Virus record (IMG/VR): IMGVR_UViG_3300028559_002714
Location: 1 to 38,274 of that record
Reading direction: 5' to 3' (one strand)
Length of the DNA: 38,274 bases
Source: a virus
Shown here: positions 1,760 to 37,595 of the stretch, piece after piece
Numbering within the stretch: position 1 is the stretch's first letter
Layout of the letters: each line of letters begins with the position of its first letter
Position numbers and translations under genes: made by a program
Notes under the pieces: model-generated
The model's input: the letters and a program-made list of their open reading frames with translations, nothing else
Database searches by the model: none
Told to the model about the DNA's origin: nothing

Positions 1760-2611
1760 CTACTTTTTTTTAAAAACATGAACTTCTAGTGCTGAAATGC
1801 GCTCTAATGCTGTATTAAGAATGATTTGCATGTTATTGTGTGAATTATGAAAATCATCGGAGAAGTGAATAACCGCCTCGTAAATACCTAAAACATGATT
1901 AATATCCTCCTTGTAAGGAGAGTATGTTTCGTTGTCTGATACGCATTTTATGTGTTTATCACCCGATTTATAGTACAAACGCTTTAAAACAAGCCCATCT
2001 ATTGTACATAACATGTACACCTTCCCTCCTTTTATATCAGAGATACTCTCACGTTGCTCAACTATAACCCATTCTTTGTTTTTAACAGTTGGATCCATAC
2101 TATCCCCTACAACTGGAAAACAGTAGAAAATACCCATTTTATGCGCTAATTGAGGTATTGTAAACCTTGGCAATGCCTGTAAGGACTCCTCATTATGTAC
2201 TATTTGAGCAAAGCCAGCTGCTACCTTATGCTCAACCAATACTATATTTTGCCTGCCTAGGTAGATTTCTTCATTTATTGAGTTGGGCATAGTATTGGGC
2301 ATAGTATTGGGCATAGTATTTTTTGCCAATTCTAATACCTTTTTAGGTACATTTTTATCTGACTTTTCTATCAATTTTCCTAGCTTATCACCTTTAATGA
2401 GTATATCAGATAAATTGGCATGAATCAAATCGGATTCACTTATACCAAAATATTTGGATATTCTTACCAAATCTTCAAATTTTGGAAAAGATTTGTTCAA
2501 TTCGTAATTATTCCATGTAGTCTGCTTGAATCCAAGCAATGGCTCTATATCGCTTTGTGTCAAGTCATTTGACATTCGTAGAGCCCTTAAGTTTTTACCA
2601 AAATATTCCAT
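1760..2611 (-). CDS. Prophage repressor, XRE HTH plus S24/LexA-like peptidase
   Basis: A 283-aa lysogeny repressor transcribed toward the left end. Residues 4-63 form an XRE-type helix-turn-helix. Residues 125-245 form an S24 autopeptidase domain with Ala132-Gly133 as the likely self-cleavage bond (VAAGFA), Ser171 in GDSMDP and Lys210 in LVLKRL as the Ser-Lys dyad. By family knowledge RecA filament after DNA damage would trigger self-cleavage and induction. The linker contains three exact 12-bp repeats coding for NTMP (residues 98-110). It is divergent from the early operon, with two palindromic operators in between. Phage Mu's own repressor lacks an S24 domain, so this switch is more lambda-like. 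Confidence 0.93.
   Translation of the reverse strand: MEYFGKNLRALRMSNDLTQSDIEPLLGFKQTTWNNYELNKSFPKFEDLVRISKYFGISESDLIHANLSDILIKGDKLGKLIEKSDKNVPKKVLELAKNTMPNTMPNTMPNSINEEIYLGRQNIVLVEHKVAAGFAQIVHNEESLQALPRFTIPQLAHKMGIFYCFPVVGDSMDPTVKNKEWVIVEQRESISDIKGGKVYMLCTIDGLVLKRLYYKSGDKHIKCVSDNETYSPYKEDINHVLGIYEAVIHFSDDFHNSHNNMQIILNTALERISALEVHVFKKK
2285..2320. repeat. 12-bp tandem repeat (3 copies) in repressor linker
   Basis: Three exact tandem copies of GGGCATAGTATT lie inside the repressor gene. Read on the minus strand they encode repeated Asn-Thr-Met-Pro in the linker between the HTH and the peptidase domain. The unit is a multiple of three, so copy-number changes would alter linker length without breaking the frame. 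Confidence 0.9.
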
Positions 2612-2977: not shown

Positions 2978-3046
2978 CCTCCGTGTAAAGCTCTCGATGC
3001 TGATTGAATTTAGACCCCAAGACGCAAAGAGAGCCACGGACGGAGG
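2978..3046 (+). promoter_or_regulatory. Stem-loop enclosing the transposase start
   Basis: GCTCTC (2990-2995) pairs with GAGAGC (3029-3034), CCGTG (2981-2985) with CACGG (3035-3039), and CCTCC (2978-2982) can pair instead with GGAGG (3042-3046). The loop contains the TTG start at 3004. A smaller hairpin (TAGTC 2927-2931 with GACTA 2941-2945) lies upstream. The structure could limit transposase translation, but that is inference from pairing alone. Confidence 0.55.
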
Positions 3047-5088
3047 CAAAGACAAAAGTAAATGAAAAAACTATAATACAAACATACTTGCAATTAATCA
3101 ACGACATATTATACTTCAGCTACATCGAACTCGTGCCAAAAGTACTTACTAAGACTAATTATGACTGGCACAAGTCGAAAGGCAATATTATCGTTGTAGG
3201 TCGTGGTGGTAATGGTCGAGAAGTATTAATACAAGCTGATTCATTGCCTCGTAAATACGCTGAGCTTGCTAAGATGCTAGTATGTGGCGGTATGGAAATG
3301 GGCGAATACTACCTCAAAAGTAAAATTGTAAACTGGTTACCTCTAGTACCTGAAAAAGATAAGCAAGCTATATTTGAGTATAGAATCCAAAAGCAACTAA
3401 ACGACTTTGAAACTGGCGAGCAAAGCCAAGTTGATAAGAGTGGCCTACCCATGTCAGCAATTGAAATGTATATGCTTGAGGTACGTTGGATTTTACTCAT
3501 GCAGGAAGGTTACAATAGATACAAAAAAGAACTACTCACGCTCGATATTCGAAGTAAGGAGCAATTCAGAATGCTATGTATTTCGGTTGCGAAAAGTAAA
3601 GGTGTAAAGTTTGGAACTAATATGGTAGCCCTTCGTAGAGACAAAATAGCCAAATACGAAAAGCAAGGTATAATAGGCATTATAAGTGGCAAATGGGGTA
3701 ATAAAAGTGCCGAAAAAGTAAGTGACGAATGCTTGCAAACACTGATTAACCTGTACGGAGATCGTACAAAACCAAGTACTAAAAAGGTAACTAAGGCCTA
3801 CAACAATATAGCCACTGCCCAGGGCTGGGATACCGTGACCGAACAAACTGTGTTTAATAACCTGCAAAAGCCTGAAATAAAACAAGTCTGGACATTGGGC
3901 AGACATGGTTATGAAGTATGGAAACGTGATTACCAATACACTGCATCACGATTTAGAGCTACGCTACCAAATGCTTTGTGGATAGGCGATGATACCAAAG
4001 TTAACCTTTGGTACTATGATGCCAAAGGTGTAAAAGCAAGTCTACAAGTGTATGCTATAGTAGACAGCCATAGTGGTTACTGGCTTGGACGTGCATACGC
4101 TGAAAACAAAGAAGGAAAGTCTATCCAAGCAGAACACGTACGCAATGCATTTGGAGATAGCGTAGTAAAGAGCGGAGGCTACATGCCATTTCAGATGCTA
4201 TACGATAATGATGGAGCCAATAACTTCTTTGAACGACTTAATACAGTACACTTCCCTTGTATGCCCTACAATGGACAAAGTAAATACATAGAACGAATGT
4301 TTAAAAAGGTGCAAGAAGGCTTTATGGCTGACGACCCAGCATTTACTGGAATGAATATCCAAAGCAAAACAGACCAAAGTAAGCGAATATTAGCTGATGC
4401 TACACCATACAGCAATAAAGAAGAAGCGATAAAAGCCTCTGAGTTTTGGTTTGAGGTGATGAATAATACAAAGGACGAACGCACAGGATTAAGCTCTAAA
4501 GAAAAGTACTACTCAACCCTAAACGAAGAAGCCCGCAAAATGACTGATATAGATGCGTTTGAAATATTGTACGAATGGAATAAGGACACCATTACAATGA
4601 CTAAGAATGGCTTTAGAATGCAACATAATAAACGTGAATTACTCTATGATGTGCTAAACGATAACCAAATCGACATAGCATTTTATGAAGAAAATGTGAA
4701 AAGAGAATTCAAAATAAAATACAACCCTCGCGATATGAACAAAATAGCGCTTTACACCACCGACGAACGATACATAGGTGTAGCGCAAACTAAAAACAGA
4801 CTTGCTGAAGCTGTACAGGATTACCGACCAGATGAACGCATGATGATTAACGAGGTCTTGCTTGTTAAAAAAGCACAGAAAACAACGGTACAACGAAAAC
4901 TAAAAATTGCAAGCGATGTGTGTGATGCAGATACACTGCTAGGTATGGGACACAAGCATGTATCTAAAGCGGTTCTAAACCAAGCCGAAGCTGATATGTA
5001 TACTGGCTATCACGAACAACAAATAAAAGCCGAAGATATGGTTCTAAGCATAGAGCAGGAGCAACGAGCAAGAGCAAGACGGCAATAA
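3004..5088 (+). CDS. MuA-like DDE transposase
   Basis: A 694-aa transposase, slightly longer than Mu A (663 aa). It should bind the end repeats and carry out strand transfer for integration and replicative transposition. The rve-like catalytic core contains IGDDTK (Asp329/330), a second acidic motif YDNDGA (Asp401/403) and the Glu of KYIERMF (Glu430), read as the DDE triad. The spacing from second Asp to Glu is shorter than in Mu. The N-terminal region should contain DNA-binding domains and the basic C-terminus (ARARRQ) the region that contacts MuB. The frame opens at a TTG (3004); the next in-frame Met is about 90 residues later and would remove conserved sequence, so TTG is preferred. The ATPase gene follows 34 bp later. 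Confidence 0.93.
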   Translation: MNLDPKTQREPRTEAKTKVNEKTIIQTYLQLINDILYFSYIELVPKVLTKTNYDWHKSKGNIIVVGRGGNGREVLIQADSLPRKYAELAKMLVCGGMEMGEYYLKSKIVNWLPLVPEKDKQAIFEYRIQKQLNDFETGEQSQVDKSGLPMSAIEMYMLEVRWILLMQEGYNRYKKELLTLDIRSKEQFRMLCISVAKSKGVKFGTNMVALRRDKIAKYEKQGIIGIISGKWGNKSAEKVSDECLQTLINLYGDRTKPSTKKVTKAYNNIATAQGWDTVTEQTVFNNLQKPEIKQVWTLGRHGYEVWKRDYQYTASRFRATLPNALWIGDDTKVNLWYYDAKGVKASLQVYAIVDSHSGYWLGRAYAENKEGKSIQAEHVRNAFGDSVVKSGGYMPFQMLYDNDGANNFFERLNTVHFPCMPYNGQSKYIERMFKKVQEGFMADDPAFTGMNIQSKTDQSKRILADATPYSNKEEAIKASEFWFEVMNNTKDERTGLSSKEKYYSTLNEEARKMTDIDAFEILYEWNKDTITMTKNGFRMQHNKRELLYDVLNDNQIDIAFYEENVKREFKIKYNPRDMNKIALYTTDERYIGVAQTKNRLAEAVQDYRPDERMMINEVLLVKKAQKTTVQRKLKIASDVCDADTLLGMGHKHVSKAVLNQAEADMYTGYHEQQIKAEDMVLSIEQEQRARARRQ

Positions 5089-5122: not shown

Positions 5123-6052
5123 ATGATTAACGAAACAACAAAACTACAGATTCAACAAGCAATGCTTCAATACATTGCAGAGCAAAACATCAGCGAAAGA
5201 AGATTTGCGGAAATAACCAAAGTAAATGGCTCATACATTAATGCCATTAAGCAAAGCAACTGGAACAACTTTCAAACTGGAGGTAAAAGCATTGCAATTA
5301 AAGACAGCTACTTTGAAAGAATAGCAACTTGTATAAAATTTGCTTATGAAATTACCTACTGGAAACATTTTGATACCGACAACTTCCTATTAGTACGCAA
5401 AGCTTGCAACAAAGCCAAAAAGAATCGCAGTAGAATTGGTATAGATGGATTTACTGGAAGTGGTAAAACATATGCCCTAGAAGCCTACAAGCGTGAACAT
5501 GTAGCTGAGACCTTTTTAGTCAAGTGTAGTGGCGATATGAACCCAAAAGACTTTATGCTAGCAATAGCTGAAGCAGTTGGTTCGGATGTTATTGGAAGTC
5601 GTTATCACTTGCGCAAAAGCATAGTAAAACGACTTTTAGAAATGCATAGACCTGTACTTATCATAGATGAAAGCGAAAATGTAAAAAAAGAGCCTGTACT
5701 AGATGCAATAAAAGGCATGTGTGATGAATTAGAGGGCAAATGCGGCATTGTTTTATGCGGTGTAGATATAAAGGACAAGTTCTTAAAACTAAGCGAAAAA
5801 AAGAAATATTGTTACCCTCAAATAAACCGACGATTCAACGGCTCATGGTTCAAGATGTTTACACTTTCAGAGGATGACATCAGAAAGGTTTGCAATGAAG
5901 TAGGTATAGAAAGCAATGGAGCTATCCAGTACCTGATTAGAAATGTAAAGGATTATGGACACCTAGCTCATGTGATCAGTGAAGCTTTACAGGAATCACA
6001 AGATACAGGCAAACCAGTAACAGCCGAAATGCTACGCATTCTTAACTCATAA
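5123..6052 (+). CDS. MuB-like transposition target ATPase
   Basis: A 309-aa AAA+ protein. Residues 1-60 resemble the N-terminal helix-turn-helix of MuB (ISERRFAEITKVNGSYINAIK). Walker A is GFTGSGKT at 109-116 and Walker B is VLIIDE at 178-183. By family knowledge it binds target DNA with ATP, recruits the transposase complex and gives target immunity. It directly follows the transposase, the order seen in Mu (A then B). Confidence 0.92.
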   Translation: MINETTKLQIQQAMLQYIAEQNISERRFAEITKVNGSYINAIKQSNWNNFQTGGKSIAIKDSYFERIATCIKFAYEITYWKHFDTDNFLLVRKACNKAKKNRSRIGIDGFTGSGKTYALEAYKREHVAETFLVKCSGDMNPKDFMLAIAEAVGSDVIGSRYHLRKSIVKRLLEMHRPVLIIDESENVKKEPVLDAIKGMCDELEGKCGIVLCGVDIKDKFLKLSEKKKYCYPQINRRFNGSWFKMFTLSEDDIRKVCNEVGIESNGAIQYLIRNVKDYGHLAHVISEALQESQDTGKPVTAEMLRILNS

Positions 6053-8524: not shown

Positions 8525-8989
8525 ATGAGCGAAACAGTTCAAATCAAAAAAGAAGATGCACTAAAAGCATTACAGCAAGCTCCGAAGGAGTTGCAACCAT
8601 TATTCACAACCCTTTTTGGTGGGTTAAAACCGCTCAAGATTACGGAGCGAATCCAAACCTTTGAGGATGTAGAAGCCATCACTGGCAAGAAACTCACACA
8701 ACAGGATGGAGAGACCACAGACGAGTTTGCCTATCGCCAAGCCAAGCTAATTGCTGAAGCATACAATGAAGGTGAGCAACTAGACCCAATGAATACTAAT
8801 CAAACTAAGTATTTCCCTTGGTTCAAGATTAATCCATCAGTATCGGGTGTCGGGCTTTCGTACAGCGGTTACGCTTACTGGTACTCGTTTTCGCATATCG
8901 GCGTTCGCCTTTGCTTCAGCACGAGTGCGAACGCAATTGATGCAGGTAAAAAATTCACTACAATTTATTCAAATTTTTTAATCAAATAA
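8525..8989 (+). CDS. DGR variable (target) protein 1
   Basis: A 154-aa protein whose C-terminal part contains a DGR variable repeat (8844-8915, residues about 107-130). The N-terminal region includes KITERIQTFEDVEAITG, and the fold before the VR carries TKYFPWFKI, shared in pattern with target 2 (WKYTPWFKV). The VR codes for SGVGLSYSGYAYWYSF and continues to HIGVRLCF. Diversified residues replace the Asn/Asp/Tyr-rich TR version, and the constant ends GVGLSY and RLCF frame them. It has no signal peptide or membrane segment and no tail-fibre-like sequence. It probably binds a ligand through the variable surface. Target 2 starts 8 bp after its stop. Confidence 0.9.
   Translation: MSETVQIKKEDALKALQQAPKELQPLFTTLFGGLKPLKITERIQTFEDVEAITGKKLTQQDGETTDEFAYRQAKLIAEAYNEGEQLDPMNTNQTKYFPWFKINPSVSGVGLSYSGYAYWYSFSHIGVRLCFSTSANAIDAGKKFTTIYSNFLIK
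8844..8915 (+). repeat. DGR variable repeat VR1
   Basis: It aligns without gaps to TR 9416-9487 over 72 bp with 15 differences, and all 15 fall at adenines of the TR (22 adenines in total). The changes are A to G, T or C. This is the hallmark of adenine-specific mutagenic retrohoming. Confidence 0.95.
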
Positions 8990-8997
8990 TCCATATC

Positions 8998-9378
8998 ATG
9001 GCAAAAGTAAAAACATGGCAAGAAGCCTTTAAAAATCAAAAATTAGACCCTAATGTAATGCCTGACGTATCAATGCTACCAAAGGAAATGCAGAAGCCAC
9101 AAATAGCCCTATATAAATTGCATGTGGTTAGCAAAGAACTCAATGGCGACTGGACACCCGACTATACTGACCACAATCAATGGAAATATACGCCTTGGTT
9201 TAAAGTAGTAGCAACTAAGGATAAACCTTCGGGTGTCGGGCTTTCGTACTACGATTGCGACAGCCGGGGCACGGGTACGGATATCGGCTTTCGCCTTTGC
9301 TTTAAAGACGAAGACACGGCTCAATACGCAGGCGAGACCTTTTTAGAATTGTGGGAGGATTTGTTTTTAAATAGATAA
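8998..9378 (+). CDS. DGR variable (target) protein 2
   Basis: A 126-aa paralogue-like second target in tandem with target 1. The N-terminal part (WTPDYTDHNQWKYTPWF) resembles small DGR targets I recall from Bacteroidetes. The VR (9225-9301, residues about 77-102) codes SGVGLSYYDCDSRGTG and then TDIGFRLCF. The tail after the VR (EDTAQYAGETFLELWEDLF) matches the same position in target 1 (ANAIDAGKKFTTIYSNFL). No signal peptide or membrane anchor is visible. The TR follows 32 bp after the stop. Two targets served by one TR imply parallel diversification of two related binding proteins. Confidence 0.9.
   Translation: MAKVKTWQEAFKNQKLDPNVMPDVSMLPKEMQKPQIALYKLHVVSKELNGDWTPDYTDHNQWKYTPWFKVVATKDKPSGVGLSYYDCDSRGTGTDIGFRLCFKDEDTAQYAGETFLELWEDLFLNR
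9225..9301 (+). repeat. DGR variable repeat VR2
   Basis: It aligns without gaps to TR 9411-9487 (77 bp) with 16 differences: 13 at TR adenines and 3 elsewhere (TR 9447 T to C, 9451 T to C, 9475 G to T). Many A positions became G, turning Asn codons into Gly or Ser. The few non-A changes may be ordinary mutation or an older template version. Confidence 0.93.
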
Positions 9379-9410
9379 TCCCATGAAGGTTGTGTATTGC
9401 ATTGTTGCTG

Positions 9411-9487
9411 ACCTTCAGGTGTCAGGCTTTCGTACAACGATTACGATAACTGGAACACGAATACGAATATCAGCGTTCACCTATGCT
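9411..9487 (+). repeat. DGR template repeat (TR)
   Basis: Non-coding template between target 2 and the reverse transcriptase. In the VR frame it reads YNDYDNWNTNTN with AAC/AAT codons at the diversified sites, as is usual for DGR templates. A 7-bp inverted repeat (TGAAGGT 9384-9390, ACCTTCA 9411-9417) marks its 5' edge. The spacer to the RT contains hairpins at 9508-9522 (TTGCCA/TGGCAA) and 9543-9571 (GCTCT/AGAGC, enclosing GCGAAAGC). These probably fold the TR RNA for cDNA priming. Confidence 0.93.
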
Positions 9488-9594
9488 GACCTAAAGCAAT
9501 ACAGACCTTGCCAACATGGCAAAAAATGACATCATCATGAAGGCTCTTTGGTAGCGAAAGCGAACGAGAGCTTGCAAAAGCAAAGGAAAAAAGA

Positions 9595-10563
9595 ATGAAA
9601 AGAATAAGCAATTTATACCAAAAGATAATTTCGATTGAGAACCTCGCCCTCGCCCATCAGAGAGCGAGCAAGGGTAAGCGTGACCAATATGGCGTGAAGT
9701 TATTCTGCCAAAATAAGGAAGCGAACCTTTTAAAGCTTCATCAGTTACTGGCTGATAAAGCATTCAAAACATCTGCATATACTACTTTTAAAGTGTATGA
9801 ACCAAAGGAGCGTGATGTGTTTCGCTTACCGTATTATCCTGATAGAATTGTACATCATGCTATCATGAATATATTTGAGCCTATTTTCGTTAAATGCTTC
9901 ACGACTGACACTTATAGCTGTATCAAAGGACGAGGCATACACAAGGCTGTGAGCAAGGTTAAATTGGCATTGAAAGATGAAGCCAATACAACCTATTGCC
10001 TGAAGCTTGATATTAAGAAGTTCTATCCGAACATTGACCACGATGTATTAAAGTCATTGCTTCGCCGAAAATTCAAAGACAAGGACTTGCTTTGGCTATT
10101 GGATGAGATAATTGATAGTGCTGAAGGAGTTCCAATTGGAAACTATCTCAGTCAATATTTTGCCAACTTCTATTTGACATACTTTGACCACTGGATAAAG
10201 GAGTTTCAATATGTAAAATACTACTTCCGATATGCGGACGACATCGTAATACTAAGTAGCGATAAGAAGCACTTGCACATGATTTTATCTGTAATTAAGC
10301 GGTACTTAAATGATAATTTAAAACTTACAGTAAAAGAAAACTATCAGGTGTTTCCTGTGCAAGCTCGTGGTATTGATTTTGTTGGATATGTATTCTATCA
10401 CACGCATATCATGCTACGCAAACGCATCAAACAAAACTTTGCTCGTATGCTCAAGCGCAACCCAAACCAAGCATCCATTACTAGTTACTGGGGATGGGCA
10501 AAGCATTGTAATTCAAATCACCTAATTAAAAAATTACTATATGAAAAAGTTTGCACAATTTAA
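9595..10563 (+). CDS. DGR reverse transcriptase
   Basis: A 322-aa reverse transcriptase. The palm domain carries LDIKKFYPNIDH (first catalytic Asp), the PIGNYLSQ motif at 180-187 that is typical of DGR/retron-type enzymes, and the catalytic FRYADD box at 211-216. A thumb-like C-terminus (SYWGWAKHCNS) follows. There is no maturase or endonuclease domain, which separates it from group II intron enzymes. With the TR just upstream and two VRs, it is the error-prone enzyme that copies TR RNA and misincorporates at adenines. No Avd gene is recognisable nearby. Its end overlaps the next start by 23 bp. Confidence 0.95.
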   Translation: MKRISNLYQKIISIENLALAHQRASKGKRDQYGVKLFCQNKEANLLKLHQLLADKAFKTSAYTTFKVYEPKERDVFRLPYYPDRIVHHAIMNIFEPIFVKCFTTDTYSCIKGRGIHKAVSKVKLALKDEANTTYCLKLDIKKFYPNIDHDVLKSLLRRKFKDKDLLWLLDEIIDSAEGVPIGNYLSQYFANFYLTYFDHWIKEFQYVKYYFRYADDIVILSSDKKHLHMILSVIKRYLNDNLKLTVKENYQVFPVQARGIDFVGYVFYHTHIMLRKRIKQNFARMLKRNPNQASITSYWGWAKHCNSNHLIKKLLYEKVCTI

Positions 10564-37401: not shown

Positions 37402-37454
37402 AAAACGATACTTTTGATTCTTTAAAAACGATACTTTTCGTTTTTGCGATTATA
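37402..37454. repeat. Right transposon end: two transposase-site repeats
   Basis: The 14-mer AAAACGATACTTTT is present at 37402-37415 and 37425-37438, 23 bp apart; the outer one overlaps the terminal inverted repeat (37431-37454). It is the inverted form of the left motif. The stretch 37177-37454 holds no gene, only the structured element, the direct repeat, the terminator and these sites. Confidence 0.78.
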
Positions 37455-37595
37455 CATTCTCTAGGCTCTAAAATTATTTATTTATTAAGTCAGCAACTTA
37501 AGTCTGAATTATACATAGATTCTTCTCATGGCACGAAATATAGTTTTCGTATCAAAAATTTAAAAACAATCCATCATGAAAATACTAATTTGTGA
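37455..37595 (+). pseudogene. 3' remainder of the disrupted histidine kinase
   Basis: 46 codons and a stop, HSLGSKIIYLLSQQLK onward to a TGA at 37593-37595. SLGSKII is the G2 box region (G-L-G-like) of the ATPase domain and continues the frame cut at base 1549 when the element and one CATT copy are removed. It has no start codon and overlaps the next gene by 20 bp. Confidence 0.88.

Follow-up and report, generated by a model that had tools for sequence, protein, structure and literature searches.

Phage diversity-generating retroelements (DGRs) with an assigned target have mostly been read as diversifiers of tail fibres. In the BPP-1 DGR (mtd/avd/TR/brt), the spacer between the template repeat (TR) and the reverse transcriptase (RT) forms a folded RNA to which the RT-Avd complex is recruited (PMC12875486), and Avd is one of three accessory types named in the literature, the others being HRDC and MSL (PMC10053308). 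In the Hankyphage DGR, the variable repeat (VR) spans residues 2188-2225 of a single huge C-type lectin-domain protein, and an Avd-like small ORF is present (PMC6199706). Two-target DGRs have been described in nd4 and nd12, where the targets (tentaclins) are mutually unrelated C-lectin proteins thought to bind surfaces (PMC10743442). In Quimbyvirus, a second DGR target lies in a defence-related island (Benler et al., PMC8008677).

Here, we analyzed a viral DNA stretch of 38,274 nucleotides (IMG/VR record IMGVR_UViG_3300028559_002714, hereafter the window). On the core features tested, its cassette is a DGR, and the locus is very probably a DGR in the early operon of a Mu-like (transposable) Bacteroidota-type prophage, with two early paralogues as targets. 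Mutagenic retrohoming is a known mechanism; what differs here is the target class, the probable helper protein and the RNA. The features are listed in Table 1.

Table 1. Coordinates of the cassette, its early-operon neighbors and comparable sites in two Bacteroides phages (window positions unless a locus or accession is given).
Feature	Position	Strand	Remarks
HTH + S24-peptidase repressor	1760-2611	-	divergent from early operon
Mu-type transposase	3004-5088	+	head of early operon; phrog_310, E 2.5e-51
MuB-like transposition ATPase	5123-6052	+	phrog_296, E 1.2e-32; AAA_22
Target protein 1, 154 aa	8525-8989	+	phrog_11581 family, E 1.1e-13; VR1 near C-terminus
VR1	8843-8915	+	differences to TR given in text
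Target protein 2, 126 aa	8998-9378	+	phrog_11581 family, E 1.2e-20; VR2, then conserved C-terminal helix
VR2	9225-9301	+	differences to TR given in text
P1 helix, 5' arm	9388-9400	+	upstream of TR; pairs with 9496-9507
Template repeat (TR), non-coding	9411-9487	+	ungapped match to VR1 and VR2 over 9415-9487
IMH*-like 3' TR boundary	9472-9487	+	adenines 9472, 9479, 9483; both VRs and relatives non-A in GxRL motif
P1 helix, 3' arm	9496-9507	+	downstream of TR
P2 hairpin	9509-9521	+	4 pairs, 3 with compensatory change
P3/P4 stem-loop	9542-9572	+	before RT; 8/8 pairs changed on both sides
DGR reverse transcriptase, 322 aa	9595-10563	+	phrog_1423, E 1.4e-123; RVT_1; bRT-like
Putative accessory protein, 101 aa	10541-10846	+	phrog_19665, E 4.5e-12; start overlaps RT stop by 22 nt
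Versailles shared TR/early-gene sites	L163:6232-6343; L166:3624-3738
BI-TP1 shared TR/early-gene sites	L165:5264-5375; PQ571265.1 near 6.5-6.7 kb

Template and variable repeats

Positions 9415-9487 of the TR align without gaps to VR1 at an offset of -572 and to VR2 at an offset of -186. All 15 differences in VR1 and 13 of the 16 in VR2 fall at TR adenines, which make up 22 of the 73 sites (hypergeometric p 1e-10 and 2e-6, respectively). The asymmetry is one-sided: counted by the VR base, 0/7 and 0/9 adenines differ. The remaining changes in VR2 are two T>C and one G>T, so some ordinary drift is present. The repeats, coordinates and difference counts of the original prediction were correct on recount. 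Its adenine bias is real also in the core (9425-9471, without the boundary sites described below), where 10/10 differences in VR1 (p 4e-6) and 8/10 in VR2 (p 0.002) lie at TR adenines, but a third of the differences counted toward it are fixed boundary sites. A third VR is absent from the whole window, the next best score being 13 versus 48-50 for the two repeats. In both targets the VR ends about 25 residues short of the C-terminus, and a short hairpin is visible 3' of VR1, around 8916-8933, a candidate for the stem-loop that DGRs carry just 3' of IMH.

VR1 and VR2 carry the same substitution at sites 9417, 9424, 9472, 9479 and 9483, and this boundary pattern is fixed family-wide among 100 non-redundant relatives. 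TR AGC is opposed by VR GGC in 77/77 loci, TR CAC by VR CGC in 70/70 and TR CTA by VR CTB in 49/49, each identical in both VRs; these three differences sit at invariant GxRL codons, and two further fixed differences are found at the 5' edge (49/50 and 42/44). By their sequence pattern, the five shared sites are best described as template/target boundary differences of an IMH/IMH*-like kind and not as random hits. They would delimit the exchanged tract and are similar to IMH/IMH* of BPP-1, the difference at the VR/TR 3' end being a recognized feature of DGRs.

Spread of the cassette and natural variation

A scan with the RT recovered 330 relatives among the pattern hits in viral contigs, of which the best 80 were kept (68-74% identity), and 76 relatives in genome contigs (38-74% identity); most are from Bacteroidota. 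Carriers of the module comprise flavobacterial, sphingobacterial, chitinophagal and other Bacteroidota prophages as well as viral metagenomes. Relative to the RT, the TR lies at about -180 in nearly all relatives, one VR at about -370 and another at about -750. In a set of 122 loci with 253 VRs, which includes some duplicates and hence partly non-independent counts, two VRs are present in 99 loci, three in 16 and one in seven, and 3546 of 3665 TR/VR differences fall at TR adenines, the concentration that the original prediction had anticipated for an alignment of related prophages. With neutral mismatch scoring, 67% of TR adenines differ versus 0.5-1.8% of C, G and T.

Near-identical loci display this variation against an otherwise invariant background. 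One pair (L010/L087) differs at 21 TR-adenine positions, 11 in VR1 and 10 in VR2 (p 5e-45), with 0 differences at 3564 other sites and 0 at 116 non-adenine VR positions. A second pair (L053/L055) differs at 11 TR-adenine positions of VR1 and nowhere else (p 3e-23); since VR1 alone has changed, the two targets vary independently. Natural variation between these twins is confined to VR positions at TR adenines, as is characteristic of a DGR. The window had been taken as direct evidence of adenine-specific mutagenic retrohoming; adenine-restricted change is directly visible in the twin loci, and activity of the window copy is predicted from its anatomy and its relatives.

Ten isolate prophages likewise yielded no third VR in the late regions retrieved; structural genes were recognizable with window queries in eight of the ten. 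Separately, a second cluster of target-family genes is present in two of the genomes (G013, contig C12, at about 1.78-1.79 Mb; G011, contig C30), possibly representing a second cassette.

Targets and their early-operon setting

In the window, the cassette is located amid the transposase, the MuB-like ATPase, a DUF3164 gene and further early genes on a single strand pointing away from the repressor, and the head and tail genes begin beyond 14 kb. The assignment of the window to a Mu-like prophage holds. As to the targets, the prediction of two different proteins stands insofar as one TR serves two tandem genes, but their products are paralogues, both of phrog_11581. The early, non-tail character of the targets, the structured template RNA and the probable membership of the small gene behind the RT in the system go beyond that prediction.

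The prophage ends (1546-1665 and 37431-37456) share a 14-bp inverted repeat, AAAACGAAAAGTAT, present in two copies at the left end. The insertion interrupts a gene for a LytS-like sensor kinase, and CATT is found at each of the two junctions.

Among 92 larger relatives, an early marker taken from the window or from locus L100 lies at most 6 kb from the cassette in 46; the other 46 are without a window-type early marker, and few of those are annotated in depth. A window-type head or tail marker was found within 3.5 kb in 0/92, a weak negative given that the queries were window proteins. Mu-like relatives have transposase, MuB or Gam-type genes near the cassette. Elsewhere, the cassette follows a repressor and precedes replication-initiation and DnaB genes (L100), or has as neighbors a RecE-like exonuclease (L006 and L053) or a DNA primase and methyltransferases (L089).

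In the Bacteroides phages Versailles and BI-TP1, phrog_11581 members are found amid recombination, replication or methyltransferase genes and are fed by the same TR as Mtd-like tail proteins. The TR beside the tail gene also matches an early gene about 43 kb away in Versailles, with 15/16 differences at TR adenines, and about 56 kb away in BI-TP1, with 14/14. Two other candidates were rejected: cr52_1 as a case of a shared TR, in which tail and early genes share VR-like sequence and no A-biased TR pair was found, and, as a precedent, the BPP-1 stretch labelled 'VR2' in the early gene bbp36 (L192:33229-33558), which has no match to the BPP-1 TR.

The tandem target pair is kept in more than 100 loci, as paralogues about 155 and 125 aa long, each with a conserved N-terminal portion, a VR and a C-terminal helix. 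An AlphaFold (AF2) model of target 2 is confident except in the VR (pLDDT 85, pTM 0.79). The targets had no convincing fold match in the PDB (best Foldseek E 0.83; VIA-align Z 2.5), and in BFVD they matched uncharacterized phage proteins only. No lectin fold was recognized by Foldseek, VIA-align or Pfam, the VR being of low confidence in the model. As a single query against the viral contigs and the phage collection, target 2 returned nothing, whereas a more typical family member gave matches.

Template RNA

An alignment of 79 loci spanning TR-45 to TR+130 yielded a consensus of 24 base pairs, 12 in P1, four in P2 and eight in P3/P4. Two-sided (compensatory) change is seen in 21 of the 24, including 10 of the 12 pairs in P1. 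Paired cells amount to 96.3% versus 33-44% in slid controls, a comparison biased by the structure having been drawn from the same alignment; 0 of 500 shuffles reached any measure, and compensated pairs are far above both controls. An unguided search for stems on either side of the TR left real and mismatched loci not clearly distinguishable, whereas the alignment-based test told them apart.

The P3/P4 region gives sub-gathering matches to Rfam RT-17 and RT-14. In the window, RT-17 matches 9504-9592 with E 0.0084 and 29.2 bits, short of the gathering score of 40.4 bits, and that score is reached between TR and RT in loci L128 (1859-1939) and L147 (1281-1361). This suggests that the Rfam RT-17 RNA is part of a DGR template RNA. 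Since the BPP-1 spacer recruits RT-Avd, an equivalent RT-recruiting role is likely, by analogy, for the part of the window template RNA between TR and RT.

Reverse transcriptase and putative accessory gene

The DGR-type RT expected downstream is indeed present: with its YADD and IGNYLSQ motifs and a phmmer match to BPP-1 bRT (E 9e-46), it belongs to the DGR clade. No Avd-type protein was recognized beside it. Queried with BPP-1 Avd, the loci gave no ORF match at E 1, and PF22296 (bAvd) is absent from the window ORFs near the RT, while the BPP-1 Avd control matches at 7e-36.

Instead, 147 of 159 loci pair the RT with a phrog_19665 gene: it is downstream of the RT in 139 and in the Avd position in eight, with none in 10 and the contig ending in two. 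The gene encodes about 100 aa, and its overlap with the RT stop is 7-22 nt in most cases. In a sister group (L129-L145), the slot that separates VR from TR holds a phrog_19665 gene (E values as low as 3e-40; profile comparison, E 8e-10), and L129, L133, L136, L140, L142 and L145 have tail-like targets of 440-480 aa with the gene in this slot and not after the RT. In the archaeal virus vir525 it overlaps the RT stop, and the target is a tail protein. Since phrog_19665 accompanies the RT whether the targets are early, tail-like or the vir525 tail protein, it tracks the RT and not the target. Among a sample of 296 Bacteroidota genomes, it occurred only in one already known DGR carrier.

Solved-structure relatives of phrog_19665 were not found; judged by sequence, the protein would be small and beta-rich, perhaps of OB-like type. 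From the linkage, we consider it reasonably likely that it replaces Avd as a partner of the RT, the RNA or the cDNA. In the literature surveyed, both this putative helper and the shape of the template RNA appear to be undescribed for DGRs, and an earlier description of the protein or of the RNA-DGR link may exist.

Discussion

As the sequences show, the cassette has a structured template RNA in which P1 closes the TR and P2 and P3/P4 lie between TR and RT. By analogy to the BPP-1 mechanism, the RT would reverse-transcribe the TR RNA with errors at adenines, and the resulting cDNA would replace VR1 or VR2. The transferred tract might be bounded by the fixed, IMH/IMH*-like TR/VR differences at the GxRL codons, and the phrog_19665 protein, given its linkage, could act in the place of Avd.

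Judging from gene position, the targets are probably cytoplasmic, early-expressed binding proteins and not parts of the virion. They would then most likely serve in counter-defence or host takeover, with a binding patch diversified against host partners that themselves vary, an assignment that we offer tentatively. More speculatively still, the locus may exemplify a distinct class of DGR, in which phrog_19665 and the RT act on a TR-closing RNA and which is dedicated to small intracellular early proteins, providing a hypervariable repertoire against host defences.

It is conceivable that the targets are receptor-binding proteins of the tail or baseplate, as in BPP-1, whose genes simply precede the late region. 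In the main phage DGR clades, most viral targets are tail proteins (PMC8144416); the VR segment in family relatives matches the tail family phrog_5302, and one homologue in Versailles carries the annotation 'tail protein'. Yet the window proteins measure only 126-154 aa and are encoded amid Mu-like early genes, distant from the tail genes; the early placement recurs in unrelated phage types, and in BI-TP1 and Versailles a true tail gene is already served by the same TR, the early gene being separate. A virion role is, on this evidence, quite unlikely. Cytoplasmic early proteins, our preferred reading of the targets, could also belong to a decayed DGR, with VRs that are historical and an element that is inert in the window prophage. 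VR2 does have three non-adenine differences, and the window copy is known from sequence alone. We nevertheless think decay very unlikely, as the RT, both target ORFs, the accessory ORF and the template RNA pairs are all intact, and relatives change at TR adenines only, with zero background divergence.

The accessory gene requires separate consideration. Genes for single-stranded DNA-binding proteins are found near replication genes in phages, which fits a reading of phrog_19665 as a mere operon neighbor outside the DGR, for instance a phage ssDNA-binding protein; its sequence pattern would resemble that of a small beta-rich nucleic-acid binder. This interpretation is doubtful in light of the overlapping frames in which the gene accompanies the RT across phage types including the archaeal vir525, its move in the sister group to the VR-TR slot, which is Avd's place in BPP-1, and its restriction in the genome sample to the known carrier of the DGR. 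A helper that stands in for Avd remains our favored interpretation, making phrog_19665 a testable candidate replacement.

The module suggests that adenine mutagenesis is directed at cytoplasmic early proteins; if true, hypermutation joins the fight between phage and host within the cell. The template-RNA structure is backed by covariation, and it ties an Rfam 'RT' RNA to DGR template RNA. Because the module is present in sequenced isolates of Elizabethkingia, Flavobacterium, Chryseobacterium and Pedobacter, it is open to testing.

Comparison with known systems

The cassette shares with the BPP-1 DGR one TR, a VR near the target C-terminus, adenine-specific differences, a homologous RT and a folded spacer RNA between TR and RT (PMC12875486). 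BPP-1 differs in having a single tail target and Avd, whereas the window has two early paralogues, phrog_19665 and a TR-enclosing helix, with no Avd found. Matches to Rfam RT-17 (RF03020) and RT-14 (RF02921) exclude the 5' arm of the TR-enclosing P1. Like the window, Hankyphage is a transposable Bacteroidota phage carrying a DGR (PMC6199706); in contrast to its huge target, the window has two very small early ones. The DGRs of nd4 and nd12 likewise feed two target genes from one TR (PMC10743442), which in the window are early-operon paralogues. Quimbyvirus (PMC8008677) and LoVEphage/BI-TP1 have one DGR target that is not part of the structural module, next to nuclease and methyltransferase genes; the early target of BI-TP1 also belongs to phrog_11581, and ORF80/84 of Quimbyvirus may, from their context, be candidate members. 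In these phages, the non-structural target is secondary to a tail target, whereas the window cassette feeds early paralogues only.
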